From Hyphomonas sp. (GTDB taxonomy: Bacteria > Pseudomonadota > Alphaproteobacteria > Caulobacterales > Hyphomonadaceae), in NCBI RefSeq assembly GCF_013823385.1, contig NZ_PNMA01000017.1:1-64000 (forward strand): 64,000 nucleotides of DNA. The letters are read 5' to 3'. The notes under the pieces were generated by a model that worked only from the letters and a program-made list of their open reading frames with translations, did no database searches and was not told where the DNA came from. Below, piece after piece: positions 45,817 to 62,300 of this stretch. Each line of letters opens with the position of its first letter. Position 1 is the stretch's first letter. A program made the translations under genes and the position numbers.

Positions 45817-49047
<3,231 letters not shown>

Positions 49048-49051
49048 CGCC

Positions 49052-50818
49052 TCATATCAGTTTCTCGAAGCCTCGACGGATAATATCCGCCATCAGCCTC
49101 CGGCGTTCGCCAAGGAAAGCATCATAGCTCATTTGTTCCCAATCCGGCGGCAGCGCGTGAAGCTCACACATTCGTCGCCAGTCGCCTTCATTGAAGCGGG
49201 CCCGTACCTCTGGCACATAAGCAGCGGGCGGATTATCACTGATCTCCAGGTTGTCGGGCCATTCAAGCAGGGCAAAGTTGGCCATTTGATTGATCTGCCG
49301 AAGGTCTGTCAGACCCTGCCGCTCCAGCCAGGCGCGCGGGAAGAGATGGTGGCGCTCAAGCGCCTTTCGGCGGGTCTGGATTGCCGGATCGATCAGGTCA
49401 GCAACTGTCTTATGAGAGAACAGCACCGGGGCGCCGAGTTTATTCTGTGCAGCCACATAAGCAAAAAGTTCTGGATTGCGGGCCGAGGAGCTATCGAGGT
49501 TCATAGGCAGCGAAATGGACCAGAAGTCGCTCGTGAGCTGCCCAGCGATGATGTCATCAAGGATCTGGAGAAACTCTTCTCCGCTCTCCACAGTACGGAA
49601 CCGGGCAAGGTCGCTGTCCATTACCGTTTCCGGTGAGCTAGTGTAGCGGCCGGTGAGCGATACCGCGAAGAACCAACGCCCAATCGCCTTCTGCAGAAGA
49701 TGTTCTGGCACCCGGTAACGCACGCGGCCGAGGAGGTAGAAGGCATAGCTAAAGAGCAGCGCGTTCTGAGACGAGATCATCTCGGCGCTCCGGAAGCCGG
49801 CACCAATCAGAGCGCTCAGAAACTGATGCCAGTTGGTCAGGTGTAGCACATGCGCCTGAGCTTCCTTCAGCCGGGCGAATTGCTCCTCCCTACGCTCAGC
49901 GAGGAAGGCCCCTGTCTCAGGGTCCTTTCCGCGCAGCACTTGATAGACGCTCTTGAGCCGTCCCCGGCCAAAGGCAATGGCTACAGCCACCCGGAGGAGC
50001 TGGTCAGGATCCGGCTGGATGAAGTGATTGAAGGGGGACGCAGCGCTGCCCTGCACTGGGGCTATCCGTGAAGCACGGCAGAAGGCTTCCAGATCCGCGC
50101 GCCCCTCCTCCCAGAAGACTGAAAGCAGCGTCAGGATGAAGTCGGCCTGGTTGAGTTTTACGCCCTCGCTGTTGATCCGGACGAAGATGTCAGCAACCTG
50201 TTCTTCATCGACATCCGAGGCGATCTCCAGCGCGGTGAACGGGTACTTCTGGAGATCGAACAGCCGATCCAGATTGTGCGAGATCAGCTCTTCCTCTTCT
50301 TCCGTCAGCGCCTGCTTGGCGGACGCCTGCTCGATAAAGTCGTTCACCAGTTTCCGGCTGGACTTGCCAGACGCCCACATTGTGGAAATGTCAGCGATCC
50401 ATTCTGGATCCCGGCGGATCGCAGCGTCCGCAACTTCAAACTTTCCATCGCGAGGCCGGAAGGCGATTTCGATGCCGCGCGCCTTGTAGTCCTCATCGAT
50501 GACACTCCGCCCCCGGAAGACCGCATACAGTGAGGTAAGCCTCTGCTGCCCGTCAACGATAAGCCGGTTGGCCACGGCGCGCGCCTTGGCGTCGGTGCCG
50601 ATCTGACGCGAGCCGGTGGCGCTGCCATTCTCCCAGAATAGCAGATAGCCGACTGGAAAGCCGCGATACATGGAATCGAACAGATCGCGCACCTTGGCAT
50701 TCGACCAGACGAAGGGGCGCTGGATGTCGGGCAGGCCAATGTCTCCGACGTCGATGTAGTGCAGCAGGCCACCGAGGTCATAATCCACCCGCTTGAAGCA
50801 TGTCTTGAGTTCGCTCAT
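49052..50818 (-). CDS. DUF262 domain protein with C-terminal HNH-like (DUF1524-type) region, GmrSD-like
   Basis: [19 protein letters not shown] (DGQQR motif); C-terminal [20 protein letters not shown]...[23 protein letters not shown]. Confidence 0.88.
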
Positions 50819-50831
50819 GAGGTTGTTCCCG

Positions 50832-51299
50832 CTATTTATTAGAGCTGCTTACATTTCGACTGGGACTCGGGGAGAGCAAACCGATCAAATGTTTCAGCTC
50901 CCGCTCATGCAACCTTGCTTTCATCGAAATGTTCGACCGCGAGATGTCATCCAAATCAAATGTCGTTCCGTCGAAGGTGAACCGGCCATGTGCAAATGCA
51001 TTTCGTAAATGCCGGAACAACGCTGCGGCTTGGGCTTCACTTCCAACACTTATGTAAGCGAAACTTCCGGTCGACGGACTAAGTCCCTTACGGAGGTTTT
51101 CGTGCAGCTCTTTGTTGGAGGCATAAGCCCTGAAGTCGATATTCGCCTTCTTCATATAATCCACCCACTCTGCGCTGGGCGGTTTGGGCCATTCTACCTC
51201 CCCTACAGATAGCTCTTTCTCCCAGCGCAGTATAATGCTTGAGTAAATGAAAGCAGACAAACCTGTACCGAGTGTGGGGGTACGCTGATTTTTCCTCAA
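50832..51299 (-). CDS. small HEPN-motif protein embedded in type I RM operon
   Basis: 155 aa; AALFRHLRNAFAHGRF (R-x4-H, RNxxxH-like); overlaps the hsdS stop by 4 bp. Confidence 0.7.
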   Translation of the reverse strand: MRKNQRTPTLGTGLSAFIYSSIILRWEKELSVGEVEWPKPPSAEWVDYMKKANIDFRAYASNKELHENLRKGLSPSTGSFAYISVGSEAQAAALFRHLRNAFAHGRFTFDGTTFDLDDISRSNISMKARLHERELKHLIGLLSPSPSRNVSSSNK

Positions 51300-52587
51300 A
51301 GCGACACACCCTCGGCAGTTCGCGCTACTTCCATCTTCAATTCCCCCGAAATCAGGCGCGGCAATAGTAGGTCGCGGGTTTGAGCCAGGGTGCGGGATTC
51401 GGCGTTATTCGTGCCTATCAGTTCGACGTTCGCGGAAAGCGCATCACGAAAGGCCGCCAACACGACCTCGGACGGAATAACGATTTCAGTCGCAGCCACG
51501 GCGTCCGGCCTGACAGCAGGATAGGCGCCGCCATCTGCCAGGTGATTAAGTCGGTTGATGTTCTCGACACTGGTTGAGGCGCACCAAACAAACACCCTGT
51601 CTCTTGCGTTCTTTGGGCGCAAGACAGCGAAACCTGTGCTCCCAGTTAGCCCATCTTCGGCCACATAGCAGAACGAGCCATTCCCGGGACGAACCGTACC
51701 AACGATGGTATCACCAGCTCGGAGGATGCGGCGCGCCCGGCTCGGCGCATCGGCCCAAGCGTAATTCTCCACTTTGTCGATGCTCCCCCATTTGGTGTTC
51801 GCCAAATCGACGTATGAGACTCGCGCCGGAGCATTTCGCGCGGTCCAGCTTTCGGGGTTCAGTGAGGCGAGGTCATTGAGAGTTCCCGCTGCCCACCCCT
51901 CCGGCTTTCCCTCGTCGTCGAGGCGGTCGGGGAATAGGGACCAGAGGTCTTCGGAGAGGTAGGCGGGGCGGCCTTCCATCTTGGCGCGGGTGGGGCCGAA
52001 GTCGACGAACCAGTCCCGGAACAAGGCCCGCGCCATCGCCTCCAACGTCTCGTTCATCTTCCGGTTCAGCTCGATCTTGTCATCGAGCGCGCCTAGGGTG
52101 TTGGCGATAGCGCGTTGTTCGGGGAGAGGAACCGCCGGAATCTCGAACTTCTCGATCATTCCTTTGGTCAGTGCATTCCGGGTTGCGCCAGATGCCGCCA
52201 GCCCAAGCATGTGAGCCTGCATCTCCGGGGAGACCAGGAAGTATCGCAGAAACCGTGGGTCAATTACTTCAGGATTCGGCCGAATGATTGCGACATGCTG
52301 GTTCACCCGGGCAGGCAAAACTATCGGATCGACCTGGCACACCCGGGCGACGCTATCGCCTGTGATGTTCAAGAGAACATCGCCGGGCTGAACCTCTACG
52401 TTCGATAGTTGGTCAGCTTGATCTTGCGAGATGAACGCGAGCCCGCTAAAGGAAAAACGATCATTCAAGACGTTCTGACTGCGGATGAGGGAGAACGGAC
52501 CTTCGGCAAGATATGCTTCTTTGCCGCCGCGTGGAGTCGCGCCGCTGCCGATCTTCAGACAGTGATCTCCGAGTCTAAGGCTCGCCG

Positions 52588-52591
<4 letters not shown>
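51296..52591 (-). CDS. hsdS: type I restriction-modification specificity subunit
   Basis: Two TRD-like halves; [45 protein letters not shown] conserved region. Confidence 0.95.
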
Positions 52592-54126
<1,535 letters not shown>

Positions 54127-54309: not shown

Positions 54310-55821
54310 TCACGGCTCAGACGCTCCATCTACGGGCTTCTCTGATTGAGGTTCCTGCCGACCCTCGCCCTGGGTCGGCTGAAACGACGCCGGAGGTGCG
54401 GGTTCTGCCTCTTGCTGTTCGGAAACCTTTTTTGGTTCGTCATCTTCTACAACGGACGGTGAGGTTGCTCCTGCGTTGTTGTTTGGAATCGCCTTGATCG
54501 GCACCAGAGCCACCCACGCCGTGACGAGAAAGGCCAAGGCTACCGAAATTCCGCCAACCCACGAAACCCGCTTAAGGGTTTTCTCGGCATCCAAGCTCGG
54601 TTGAATGACCAGCTTCTGGTATTCATCAGGCGACAGGAATCTGTAAATCTGGTTCCGCCACACGTCCCTCAATCCTCGCTGCAAAGCGGCAAACCTGTGT
54701 CCTGAGTAAATCACTACGAAGATATAGCCTGTCACAACAAACATCACCGCAAGCACCAAGAGACCGGGTGCGTTCGCCACGATCCTGGCCGCTATAAGAC
54801 CGATGCCGATGGCCAGCGCAGAGGCCAGCGCGCCAACCACTTGGCGCACGGCATCGGTGATCTTCGCCGTTTCTTCCGTAACTGCCTTCCGGAGATCCGC
54901 GAGGGCCTTCAGGTTATCGGCGCTCACTTTTGCGACGGACATGGCGTGAGCAATCTTGGCGCCCTCAAGAGCGTGGCCCAGATTGTCACGCAGGCATTCT
55001 AGTGTGTCGGCACCCGCGCTTCCGGTGCGCGCAAACTCTGTCGCGAAAAGCGTGTGGCGATTCTCTGCTTCTCGGTCGAACTCGTAAACCCACCTGACCG
55101 CGGCCTGCAGGTTCTCGAAGCCCACACGGCCAATTGTGCCAAAGATGTCTCCGCCAGCTTCCAACTTTGCGAGCGCAAGGCGCGGAGGGCCTCTGAAAAC
55201 GTATGATCCAGAGACATGATCGATCTCCGTGGCCAGAGCGGGCAGAAGTGCCCGAACGGCATAGCCGACCCAGAGCCGATACCTGCCGTCTTTTTCGTGC
55301 CAAGTCGACGGCTCCACGAGAAGCCATTTGCCGATCACACTTGGGACTATCCGGTTTGTTCCGTACTCGCGGACCAGTGTTTGCGGGTTTCGGAAAGATT
55401 GCCCGACGCTGATACCGCTCGAAACCTCTTCCTCCGGAATGAACCGCATGCCTTCAACAGCGAAGGCATAATCCAGCCCGACGACTGCAATCTCTACGCC
55501 TTCCATATCGCTGAGAAGTATTTCGCCAAATCCCGCATCCGATACCACCAACGCTGCCACGTCCAACCGCGTTGGCTTGACGGCTGTGATGCGAAAAGGC
55601 CCAAAACTGTCGTCGAGATCGCCCAACTCAGTCTCATTTTCCGCTCTATCGAATATGCTGGCCTGCCAAGATAGGTCGGCTATCATCCCTGCGAGGACTT
55701 GCGCAGACGCTGCTGAAAGCTCCGAAACCTTCAGCACATCAGGCAACTCACTGACCACCGCACCGGCCGTCACCAATTCATCTAGTTTTAATGCGAGCGT
55801 TCTCAGAAACGATGCGCTCAT
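54310..55821 (-). CDS. uncharacterised multi-TM protein with large soluble N-terminus and disordered acidic/Pro tail
   Basis: Start trimmed to MSASFLRTLALKLDELV (ATG at 55821) after RBS-like aggtcac region; TM-like VVGALASALAIGIGLIAARIVANAPGLLVLAVMFVVTGYIFVVIY and GGISVALAFLVTAWVALVPI. Confidence 0.75.
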   Translation of the reverse strand: MSASFLRTLALKLDELVTAGAVVSELPDVLKVSELSAASAQVLAGMIADLSWQASIFDRAENETELGDLDDSFGPFRITAVKPTRLDVAALVVSDAGFGEILLSDMEGVEIAVVGLDYAFAVEGMRFIPEEEVSSGISVGQSFRNPQTLVREYGTNRIVPSVIGKWLLVEPSTWHEKDGRYRLWVGYAVRALLPALATEIDHVSGSYVFRGPPRLALAKLEAGGDIFGTIGRVGFENLQAAVRWVYEFDREAENRHTLFATEFARTGSAGADTLECLRDNLGHALEGAKIAHAMSVAKVSADNLKALADLRKAVTEETAKITDAVRQVVGALASALAIGIGLIAARIVANAPGLLVLAVMFVVTGYIFVVIYSGHRFAALQRGLRDVWRNQIYRFLSPDEYQKLVIQPSLDAEKTLKRVSWVGGISVALAFLVTAWVALVPIKAIPNNNAGATSPSVVEDDEPKKVSEQQEAEPAPPASFQPTQGEGRQEPQSEKPVDGASEP

Positions 55822-56833
55822 CTGTGACCTTCTTTGTACGAATTGTGATTGTCTCACCGCCGGCCTCGGTCTTCTCACGATTGACCATGGCAGTAGCATC
55901 GTCCGGATACACAACAACTACGCCTTCCGTAGTGCGCAGCCGCAGCATCGCGGGCTTCTTAATAATCTTTCTATCGGGAGCGAATGCAAGTCCCTCAAGC
56001 TTGGCGCTCTTCACCCTGCGGCCGATAGTCCGATCAATCCGTCCGATGGTCTTCTCGTCCTCCGGATTGCCGGCTGCCGCAAGCACAGCGTCCCGGACCG
56101 AATCTTCCGTTACCATTATGCGGTCATGTAGATGGGCCTGAGCTCGCCTGAACGCAGCGGCGACATCCTTCTCTGGCAAATCGTCTGCGTGCTCAGTAAG
56201 CACCTCGCGAAGCACCTTTACAACTGCCCGACTCAAGTCCTCGTCGCTCCGTGTGCGATTCACCTCCAAGTATTTGGCGAAATAGTCGCCGATGTCTGGT
56301 CCGGGCTTGATTCTGTCAGTCGCACAAAGGCCAGACTCCGCTTTACCGTCTACGACCCTTACTAGGGCAGCCTTCTGTATCGAACGCTTCCCAGCAACGA
56401 AGGCCTGGACTATGAGCCGCAGCATAGCATCGACATTACCGTCCGTCTGTTCGACTACTTCCTCATAGTCATACTTAATCAGACTAAAGAACTTAATGTT
56501 CGGCAGTCCAGCGCTAAGCTCAAAAATGAAAAAAGCGCCCTCCCGGCTAGTACCATCGTGAAAGCGGTTGAACTCCCGCGCGAGAGTCTGGGCGCCCGTC
56601 TCGAACGAGAGAGCCCCAGTGGCTATACTTTCGATAGTTCTCTTTGTGCTCGAGGCCGGATCGAAGCCAAAGACAGCTGCAGCGTCACTTTCGCGTATCC
56701 GGGCGAGAAAGAAATCTTCATGTTCCACCGAGCGAGCTGGCTGAGGCACGAATTCGGCGCCACTCACGCCGTGCAGCGCCATGTTCACAATCTTCAAAGA
56801 ACTTAATTCGTCGTCACTCAGAAATCCCACCAT
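55778..56833 (-). CDS. nucleoid-associated protein-like (NdpA/YejK, PF04245-type) protein
   Basis: ATG 56833 after gggggaag; ALHGVSG...HEDFFLARIRESDAAAVFGFDPAS...AQTLAREFNRFHDGTSREGAFFIFEL...KFFSLIKYDYEEVVE resembles the NA37 family. Confidence 0.55.
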   Translation of the reverse strand: MVGFLSDDELSSLKIVNMALHGVSGAEFVPQPARSVEHEDFFLARIRESDAAAVFGFDPASSTKRTIESIATGALSFETGAQTLAREFNRFHDGTSREGAFFIFELSAGLPNIKFFSLIKYDYEEVVEQTDGNVDAMLRLIVQAFVAGKRSIQKAALVRVVDGKAESGLCATDRIKPGPDIGDYFAKYLEVNRTRSDEDLSRAVVKVLREVLTEHADDLPEKDVAAAFRRAQAHLHDRIMVTEDSVRDAVLAAAGNPEDEKTIGRIDRTIGRRVKSAKLEGLAFAPDRKIIKKPAMLRLRTTEGVVVVYPDDATAMVNREKTEAGGETITIRTKKVTDERIVSENARIKTR

Positions 56834-57563: not shown

Positions 57564-58118
57564 ATGACTGACCCTGTTGAACCAACCCCCGCCGTAGCGG
57601 CTGACGCCCCTGCCCGGCCGCGTATTTATGTGGCCTGCCTTGCCGCCTATAACTCCGGCATCCTGCATGGAAGGTGGATTGCTGTTACCACTCCCGATGA
57701 AGTGAAAGCGGAAGTGGGCGCCATGCTGAGTGAAAGCCCGGTGCCTCGCGCCGAAGAATGGGCAATCCATGACTATGAAGGGTTCGAGGGCATATGCCTC
57801 TCTGAACACGCGTCCTTCGAGACGGTCTGCGAACTGGCCAGCTTTATTGAAGAGCGCGGCAGGCTGGCGGCGAAGCTTTACAGCCATTTTGGCAACGGTC
57901 TCACCGAAGCCCGCGCCGCGTTCGAGAACTATGCCGGGCAGTATCAGACGGCAGGCGCGTTCGCCGAAGAGATGATCCGGGAAACCGGGACGGAGATTCC
58001 GGCTTCTCTGGAATACTACATCGACTGGCAGGCCCTCGCCCGTGACATGGCGCTGAATGGCGAAATCCTCGTCATCCAGGTCGGCTTTGATGAAGTGCAT
58101 GTGTTCTGGTGCCGGTGA
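57564..58118 (+). CDS. ardA: ArdA-like antirestriction protein
   Basis: RIYVACLAAYNSGILHGRWIAVTTPDEVKAEVGAML...EEWAIHDYEGFEGICLSEHASFETVCELASFIEERG; acidic. Confidence 0.92.
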   Translation: MTDPVEPTPAVAADAPARPRIYVACLAAYNSGILHGRWIAVTTPDEVKAEVGAMLSESPVPRAEEWAIHDYEGFEGICLSEHASFETVCELASFIEERGRLAAKLYSHFGNGLTEARAAFENYAGQYQTAGAFAEEMIRETGTEIPASLEYYIDWQALARDMALNGEILVIQVGFDEVHVFWCR

Positions 58119-59246: not shown

Positions 59247-60176
59247 ATGACGATGATGCGAACCGACCTCGACCACCTCCCCCATGGCAAGCAGCGCGAA
59301 CTCGCCCGCGTGACGGAAATCCTGTTCGAGGAATTTGCTGACGCCATGGCGGGCGCTTCTTCCCCGACGAAGAAGCAAGGCCGCATCCTCAAGATCATCC
59401 TCTTCGGGTCGTATGCACGCGGGACCTGGGTGGACGAGCCCCATACCGCGAAGGGATACCTCAGCGACTATGACCTGCTGATCGTCGTCAACCAACAGAG
59501 CGTCGTTGATTTCGCGACCTACTGGTACCGGGCCGAAGACCGGATCATGCGGGAAACCAGCATCAGGACCCCGGTCAATTTCATCGTGCACACGATGGAC
59601 GAGGTGAACGATGCCCTCCGCCAGGGCCAGTACTTCTTTACCGACATCATCAAAGAGGGCATCGCGCTTTATGACCTCAAGGGCAGCACGCCCTTCGTGA
59701 CGCCACAGCCGCAGACGGCCGGGGAAGCGCTGACCACTGCAGAAAAGCACTTTGAGGTAAGGTTTCCTCGGATTGAACAGGCCCTTACAGGCGCCAAGTT
59801 CTACGTGTCTGTAGGCAACCTGCGTGACGCAGCATTCACATTTCACCAAGCCGTGGAGCGCGCCTATACTTGCCTGCTCCTTGTAGAGACGAATTACTCG
59901 CCATCAACGCACAGCATAAAATTCCTACGCTCCCTTGCAGAGCAGATCGACCCGAACCTGATCACAGCTTGGCCGCGTGAGACGAAGCATGACCGGCGGC
60001 TGTTTGAATTGCTCAAGCGCGGATACATTGATGCGCGGTATTCAGAGCACTACGCCATCACAGTTGAGGAGCTTGCCTGGCTCGGTGAGCGGGCGGAAGT
60101 CCTTCGGGAGCTTGTGGGAAAACGTTCGCAATGCAAAATCGAGCAATTGAGAGATGGCGCGCTATCCAGTGGTTAA
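59247..60176 (+). CDS. fused MNT nucleotidyltransferase-HEPN domain protein
   Basis: N-terminal ILFGSYARGTWVDEPHTAKGYLSDYDLLIVV; C-terminal FHQAVERAYTCLLL...RGYIDARYSEHYAIT. Confidence 0.9.
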   Translation: MTMMRTDLDHLPHGKQRELARVTEILFEEFADAMAGASSPTKKQGRILKIILFGSYARGTWVDEPHTAKGYLSDYDLLIVVNQQSVVDFATYWYRAEDRIMRETSIRTPVNFIVHTMDEVNDALRQGQYFFTDIIKEGIALYDLKGSTPFVTPQPQTAGEALTTAEKHFEVRFPRIEQALTGAKFYVSVGNLRDAAFTFHQAVERAYTCLLLVETNYSPSTHSIKFLRSLAEQIDPNLITAWPRETKHDRRLFELLKRGYIDARYSEHYAITVEELAWLGERAEVLRELVGKRSQCKIEQLRDGALSSG

Positions 60177-60481: not shown

Positions 60482-60787
60482 TTAGAAGCCGAGAAACGAC
60501 TTGGCAGCTGACATGTTAGGAGCGTAGCTTATGTTTGACTGTCCGAAGTCTGACACAAGCGCAGGCTCCAGAACCCCTCCTCCAGTTTGATAGTCTTTTG
60601 TATTCGAAGACAGAAAAACTGCTGTGGTTTGCATTCCTGCGGCGCGCAGCGAATCTAGTGCATCCAGATAGGTTTCAACAACAATGCAGTCTTTCGAAGA
60701 TTCCTTGCCTCTGCGCGCTGGGGCGATGTTTTGATTCATTCGCTTCATCGCGCGGACGGCAATTTCATCCCTAGTAGGCAAGCGCAA
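60482..60787 (-). pseudogene. C-terminal remnant of a PIN-domain (DUF4935-like) protein
   Basis: ARRGKESSKDCIVVETYLDALDSLRAAGMQTTAVFLSSNTKDYQ...YAPNMSAAKSFLGF with in-frame stop immediately upstream and no N-terminus. Confidence 0.55.
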
Positions 60788-60914
60788 TTTTTGGTAGTTT
60801 CATGCCGTTTCATTGGGTTGCGGAACGCTCCTTACTATCCCTGTATATATTGAATTATTTCACGATTCATGCTCCCTTAGGTTTCATCGCGTTTTTCTTC
60901 AAGCAGCGGCCAAA

Positions 60915-61000
60915 TGGGACCCGGGGTCCTTGACCCCCTGTATGAGGCTTGGAGCCGAAATCGGATCGTCTGGGGGTCAGAAGTCCCTCCCGGGGTCCCA
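60915..61000. promoter_or_regulatory. long imperfect inverted repeat directly upstream of the integrase RBS
   Basis: tgggacccggggtccttgaccccc (60915-60938) versus gggggtcagaagtccctcccggggtccca (60972-61000). Confidence 0.7.
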
Positions 61001-61010
61001 AAGGAGGAAT

Positions 61011-62300
61011 ATGATGCGACAGAATATGACAGCGCGCTTCGTGGAAACCATCAAACCCAAGTCAGGCGAACGCCTCACCGTTACAGACTCAGTCGTCGAA
61101 GGGCTGGAGCTTCGGGTCGGCACGAACGGCTCAAAAATGTGGTCGCTGCGCTACCGGACAAAGGGCGGTAAGCGAAACAGACTTTCCCTTGGACGGTATC
61201 CCGCCCTCACACTCGCCGAAGCGCGGGACCGGGCCATCCAGGCGCTCGCGGCTGCTGTCAGTGGCGGTGATCCGGCAGCCGTCAGGAAGACCGAGAAAGC
61301 GGAGGCAATCGCGGCAGAACGCACTGTCGAGGATCTCGCTACAGCGTTCTTTGCCTCGCCCGAAGCCGCCCAGCGCACAAAGCAGACAAACATCATGGAA
61401 TCGGGGGTCTGGCGAAACCACCTCGCTCCGAAACTGGCAAAACGTCCATTGCAGGAACTGAAACGCGGCGAAGTGCGCGCCTGTATCCGGGAGGTCGCCG
61501 AAGCCTCCGGGAACAGGACAGCAAATTATACCCATGCTGTCCTGCGACGGATCTATAATTTTGGCATCCGGGAAGAATGGGTCGAGATGAACCCGGCTCA
61601 GTTTCCCCAGCTCTATCAACACAGGTCCCGCGACCGCGTCCTGAGTGAAGCTGAAATCCGGCTATTCTGGCAGACCTGGTCGGTGGCAAAGACCGGCGGG
61701 AAGCTGGGCGTGTCCGAACCCATCGCGATCGCCCTCCAGCTCTGCCTGGCAACGCTGCAGCGGGCGGGCGAAATCATCGGCATGCACACGGATGAACTGG
61801 ACTGGACCACCCGGTCCTGGGTGATTGCGTCGGAGCGGTCGAAGAACCGGAGGTCCCATCATGTGCCCCTCTCTCCTCTCAGCCAGCAGCTGATCCGGCG
61901 AGCGCTGTCGCTCGCCACAGCGACCGAAGTTCCAAAAGATATCGATAAACCCCTGCCGCGGCTCGTCGCCGATTACCGGGGCCACGTCTTCCCGGCGATC
62001 CATGGCAACGGGCCGGTAGATCGTCACGTCGTCACGCGTGCCATGAGCCGGATCCGTGAGAAGCTGAACATCGACAATGCAACCGCCCATGACCTGCGCC
62101 GCACAGGCGCAAGCATGATGGCGTCCGAGCGGTGCGGCGTGCGCGGAGAAGTGATCGCCCGCATCCTCAACCACACACCGCTCGGCTCACCGGTCACGCA
62201 GATCTATAACCGGTATGACTATGCGGCGGAGAAACGCGCCGCGCTCGAACTCTGGGCTGAAACCCTGCTGAAGATAAGCAGTGTGGCGCAGTCAAAATAG
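61011..62300 (+). CDS. int: tyrosine-type site-specific integrase (P4-like, DUF4102 N-terminus)
   Basis: KMWSLRYRTKGGKRNRLSLGRYPALTLAEARDRA; catalytic ATHDLRRTGASMM-type and HTPLGSPVTQIYNRYDY; start trimmed to ATG 61011 after aaggagg. Confidence 0.95.
   Translation: MMRQNMTARFVETIKPKSGERLTVTDSVVEGLELRVGTNGSKMWSLRYRTKGGKRNRLSLGRYPALTLAEARDRAIQALAAAVSGGDPAAVRKTEKAEAIAAERTVEDLATAFFASPEAAQRTKQTNIMESGVWRNHLAPKLAKRPLQELKRGEVRACIREVAEASGNRTANYTHAVLRRIYNFGIREEWVEMNPAQFPQLYQHRSRDRVLSEAEIRLFWQTWSVAKTGGKLGVSEPIAIALQLCLATLQRAGEIIGMHTDELDWTTRSWVIASERSKNRRSHHVPLSPLSQQLIRRALSLATATEVPKDIDKPLPRLVADYRGHVFPAIHGNGPVDRHVVTRAMSRIREKLNIDNATAHDLRRTGASMMASERCGVRGEVIARILNHTPLGSPVTQIYNRYDYAAEKRAALELWAETLLKISSVAQSK

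Follow-up and report, generated by a model that had tools for sequence, protein, structure and literature searches.

A probable two-gene defence system pairing an NA37/YejK-type protein with a membrane protein of no known family

The 64,000-nucleotide stretch of Hyphomonas sp. DNA analysed here (the window) carries two overlapping minus-strand genes between hsdM and ardA, a position that the first-pass annotation had described as a defence-type island. The question that this locus raises is whether the pair is itself a defence system and, if so, how its two products could act together. Judged from sequence comparison, the pair is probably an undescribed bacterial defence system.

The two genes and their products

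Both ORFs proved open as the first-pass annotation had read them, gene 1 at 55778-56833 and gene 2 at 54310-55821 of the minus strand, and direct reading gave the same overlap of 44 bp, in different frames (55778-55821). Gene 1 starts at the ATG at 56833, directly after AAGGGGGAAG, with a GTG at 56830 as an equally good start, and GAAGGT lies upstream of the gene 2 ATG, inside gene 1. This arrangement fits coupled translation of the two genes.

Gene 1 encodes a protein of 351 aa that belongs firmly to the NA37 family. The window protein itself gave a sub-threshold Pfam match to NA37 (PF04245; 19.2 bits, E 8.6e-4, cut-off 24.6), and each of the 36 homologues in its family alignment matched NA37, the best at 8e-22. 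The AlphaFold model of the protein (pLDDT 86.6) had one significant match in the PDB, 9be2, which is E. coli YejK (E 2.4e-7, probability 1.00, with a modest TM-score of 0.41), and the gene 1 profile matched the canonical YejK profile at E 5e-6. The resemblance to NdpA/YejK noticed from the letters alone is thus borne out by the homologues and the model. A Pantoea relative scored ~48 bits on NA37 versus ~370-390 for canonical enterobacterial YejK, which marks gene 1 as a member of a divergent NA37 subfamily. A profile search of the window's genome returned no NA37 match over the cut-off, and gene 1 therefore does not duplicate a housekeeping gene resident there. It also differs from YejK, the housekeeping nucleoid protein of E. 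coli, in its membrane-gene partner, its mobility and its patchy distribution. By analogy with its family, the product may bind DNA or the nucleoid.

Gene 2 encodes a membrane protein of 503 aa without a known family or fold. No credible Pfam family was obtained for any of its homologues (0/35), the protein had no credible match in NCBIfam, PHROG or PADLOC, and its model (pLDDT 84.9) had no fold match in the PDB or BFVD; the first reading had recognised no family either. According to the model and the secondary structure, the protein opens with a soluble alpha/beta region that is probably cytoplasmic (residues 1-270, 55012-55821), followed by a long helix or coiled-coil stalk, placed by conservation and the model (residues 273-329, 54835-55005), that runs on into TM1. 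Hydropathy and the helices of the model place three predicted TM segments: TM1 (residues 330-349, 54775-54834), TM2, which forms a hairpin with it (residues 353-375, 54697-54765), and TM3 (residues 419-439, 54505-54567). Conservation, model and charge delimit a basic helical loop between TM2 and TM3 (residues 376-418, 54568-54696) and, after TM3, an acidic Pro/Glu/Lys-rich tail that is disordered, probably periplasmic and unconserved in the family (residues 440-503, 54313-54504), all on the minus strand. The helices of the model span residues 273-349 (~77 residues, entering the membrane), 353-391 and 398-439. Of the original description, the roughly three hydrophobic segments and the composition of the tail stood, while the soluble N-terminus has to be shortened from ~380 aa to ~330 aa.

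The stalk is the most conserved stretch of gene 2 and holds most of its invariant residues (S300, K305, L307, D309, L310, R311 and K312); W388 is a further one and lies in a conserved region of the loop together with R385, P408 and Y416. The loop has a net positive charge and is therefore probably cytoplasmic; with the net negative charge of the tail, this fits a topology in which the N-terminus and the loop are inside and the tail outside, the charge signal being weak across the family. A HEPN-like RxxxxxH motif was present in some members and was rejected, as it is not conserved. The C-terminal module resembles in layout (TM hairpin, helical loop, TM) the octameric 8xMP family (PF24838), to which it also has weak profile similarity (hhalign E 0.003, probability 10.7%, 63 columns); we treat this as a lead that may point to an oligomeric pore and not as evidence of one.

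The pair as a conserved unit

Co-occurrence of the two genes in unrelated genomes, which the first-pass annotation had named as a check, turned out to be conserved, and two of the three refuting conditions that it had listed, those on co-occurrence and on known families, did not overturn its reading. With the membrane protein alone as query, a genome scan returned 35 loci in alpha-, beta- and gammaproteobacteria, and an NA37 gene lay directly upstream of the membrane gene in 34 of them; the exception (L010) is a truncated copy. The NA37 gene is frameshifted in L009 and L041. Viral contigs were searched with the membrane protein (7 loci) and, as a reciprocal test of the pairing, with the NA37 protein (6 loci), and both genes were found on all 10 of the distinct contigs. 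On plasmids the partner was present for 8 of 10 NA37 matches, one such membrane gene being interrupted by a transposase, and the remaining two matches, from Bradyrhizobium, are decayed copies. Searches of E. coli DNA and of phage records found no close homologues. Individual cases of decay include a membrane gene of S. meliloti that a transposase splits (L002:8977-12433), a Klebsiella membrane-gene fragment adjoining IS26 (L007:8788-9984) and a broken Bradyrhizobium NA37 gene for which no partner was found (L008:9001-9742).

The soluble NA37 gene came first in all intact pairs, and an overlap of 4-62 bp was retained in 35 of the 37 pairs compared. Alpha-, beta- and gammaproteobacteria all yielded pairs with this order and an overlap, so that chance does not account for the two ORFs. 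The distance matrices of the two proteins were correlated with a Mantel r of 0.973 (0 of 2000 permutations as high, none above 0.198), a correlation to which shared ancestry contributes.

The overlap of the two genes, with the putative neutraliser in first place, the oligomer-type architecture of the membrane protein and the frequent decay of the pair could also fit a toxin-antitoxin system, in which the NA37 protein would hold a toxic membrane protein in check. We consider this very unlikely, as both proteins are large for such a pair and the NA37 protein has no regulator-like domain. All copies of the membrane gene that lacked an NA37 gene were fragments (L007 and L010), which is no measure of toxicity.

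Genomic setting and distribution

The pair was present in 2 of 385 genomes of the class and in 4 of 399 of the phylum, the window's own genome counted, and thus in ~0.5-1% of the sampled Pseudomonadota genomes. One of the pair-bearing genomes sampled (G684) appears to be the Pantoea contig of locus L032, so that the genome sample and the set of loci overlap. The GC content of the pair is 54-57%, against ~64% over most of the window.

The neighbourhood of the pair is rich in defence genes. Among 224 neighbours (up to five genes away, at 28 loci), PADLOC matches to defence genes were abundant and many were below 1e-50, counted per family and not per locus; they include matches to HamB (9e-244), PtuA (5e-199), SIR2 (7e-182) and HerA (2e-161), and QatA, AbiEii, GajB-type (Gabija), CBASS cyclase and type IIG RM proteins were further types. 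The systems represented comprise Hachiman, Septu, SIR2-HerA, Qat, AbiE, dGTPase, IetAS, MADS, DRT and DISARM-type. In a control of 115 genes, taken at fixed positions and from four pair-bearing genomes only, the best PADLOC match was 9e-23, to a generic helicase. At some loci the surrounding genes are ordinary metabolic ones. The Methylocystis pair sits next to DUF262 and genes annotated as anti-phage.

For the window itself, Pfam confirmed both flanking genes named at first sight, hsdM at 52588-54126, separated from gene 2 by a gap of 183 bp, and ardA at 57564-58118 (ArdA antirestriction, E 6e-42). With ArdA next to both the pair and a type I RM operon, defence and counter-defence genes lie together here. 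In the operon (45817-54126), which the pair adjoins, hsdS and hsdR are separated by two additional genes: one encodes a DUF262/GmrSD_N protein (49052-50818), and the other is small, with weak HEPN-like matches and 49% GC (50832-51299). Elsewhere in the window, a single protein combines an N-terminal nucleotidyltransferase (Polbeta/NTP_transf_2) with a C-terminal HEPN domain, as in a fused MNT-HEPN type toxin-antitoxin (59247-60176); a short ORF that matches PIN_12 in part (E 2.8e-4, to the end of the profile only) is possibly a remnant (60482-60787); and a further gene (60813-62300) reads like the tyrosine integrase of an integrative element. The window contained no tRNA, and the island no RNA families and no convincing attachment repeats.

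Such settings also bear on a housekeeping role on mobile elements, in which a membrane-anchored NA37 nucleoid protein would organise, partition or regulate plasmid, ICE or prophage DNA. Several pairs are on plasmids or near conjugation genes, phage F116 carries a lone NA37 gene among its replication genes, without such a membrane partner, and NdpA2 of the ICE PAPI-1 regulates transfer with MvaT and TprA (PMC8565334). On phages and ICEs, NA37 proteins also work simply as nucleoid proteins or regulators (PMC8565334), which counts against a defence system. However, TprA is a DNA-binding regulator, whereas the partner in the window is a three-TM protein; many pairs sit on chromosomes next to defence genes, and the adjoining element genes differ from locus to locus. 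A housekeeping role therefore appears unlikely to us.

Relation to known systems and proposed mechanism

A second kind of NA37 and membrane pair, type B, is found mainly in lambdoid prophages (L075:12005-14376, L076:8005-10376, L068:4502-6901, L069:4960-7316, L105-L107 and L109), mostly on the opposite strand between the antiterminator Q and the lysis genes, and also in Klebsiella phage P7641 and in plasmid or prophage elements of E. coli and Klebsiella. In L068, a lambdoid prophage, and in L069, the NA37 genes are intermediate between YejK and gene 1, with the membrane gene downstream; a relative of L068 occurs in 30-40 of 5,426 E. coli genomes. The type B partner, of ~405 aa, has a soluble N-terminus and a helical stretch (coiled coil) ahead of a TM hairpin, which a helical loop connects to the final hydrophobic segment; some members have just one or two clear hydropathy peaks. 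Type B is thus like the pair in the window in gene order, in overlap (4 bp in E. coli) and in the layout of soluble part, coiled coil, hairpin, loop and third TM, but its NA37 protein is far closer to canonical YejK, and profile comparison detected no homology between the two membrane proteins (E 0.5).

An E. coli transcription unit with a YejK nucleoid-associated domain was validated experimentally as anti-phage by DefensePredictor (PMC13092281). It shares with the pair an NA37/YejK domain in an anti-phage unit, and this domain alone is named in the text, so that the unit cannot be equated with the pair in the window or with type B (PMC13092281); we infer that it may be the type B pair. More broadly, and tentatively, a wide, undescribed class of immune systems coupled to the membrane could be built around NA37 proteins, which would have recruited at least two coiled-coil three-TM partners, unrelated to each other in sequence, to convert surveillance of DNA or the nucleoid into a membrane response. 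A literature search, largely restricted to sources other than subscription papers and preprints, found no publication describing such a pair.

The closest known layout is that of Kiwa, which likewise consists of two genes, for a membrane protein and for a DNA-associated protein. The first-pass annotation had called the two alike in layout and not in homology, and profile comparison agrees, with hhalign giving E 0.39 (probability 0.2%) for gene 1 against KwaB (PF16162) and E 0.3 for gene 2 against KwaA. Together with the lack of a PADLOC match, these comparisons rule out membership of the pair in Kiwa. The order of genes differs as well, the membrane gene preceding kwaB in Kiwa (L062-L066) and the soluble gene coming first in the window, and KwaA is a small multi-TM protein, whereas gene 2 has three predicted TMs and a large soluble domain.

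A mechanism like that of Kiwa, reached without homology, is the main rival to our proposal, ahead of a mobile-element regulator or a toxin-antitoxin. Here the roles would be reversed: the membrane protein would detect or mark the site of injection, and the NA37 protein would be the effector, coating the entering phage DNA and blocking its replication or transcription. The same division of labour is found in Kiwa itself, whose membrane protein works with a partner that binds DNA without cutting it (PMC12904381). No catalytic activity is known for NA37, and Pfam searches found no nuclease family. However, neither protein is related in sequence to KwaA or KwaB, and the invariance of the stalk suggests that the signal is transmitted toward the membrane, a direction that it does not fix. 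We regard the reversed roles as possible but doubtful.

The best reading of the sequences, in our view, is that the pair would be a two-gene defence of the membrane plus DNA-binding kind, built of parts unrelated to the known ones. Our full proposal, a horizontally acquired module against phages or other mobile elements in which an NA37 sensor acts on a membrane effector, we put at a probability of about 0.5, and a role in defence in general is more probable than that. In this proposal the gene 1 product, a nucleoid protein of the NA37 type, would bind DNA in the cytoplasm, and the gene 2 product would lie in the inner membrane and dock with it through a cytoplasmic N-terminal domain. During infection, the NA37 protein would meet abnormal phage DNA, incoming or replicating, or a disturbance of the nucleoid, and the signal would pass from the docked protein through the long helical stalk to the three-helix membrane module. 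The membrane partner would then oligomerise or open, and the cell or the infection would be stopped. This direction of signalling, from the NA37 sensor to the membrane effector, is something we infer.

If true, the proposal would link immunity to a widespread and poorly understood family of nucleoid proteins and would add a coupling of DNA to the membrane that is not homologous to Kiwa. The E. coli defence system with a YejK domain, already validated, would also gain a context ready for work on its mechanism. The gene 2 protein, large and conserved, is a concrete target for studies of structure and function.
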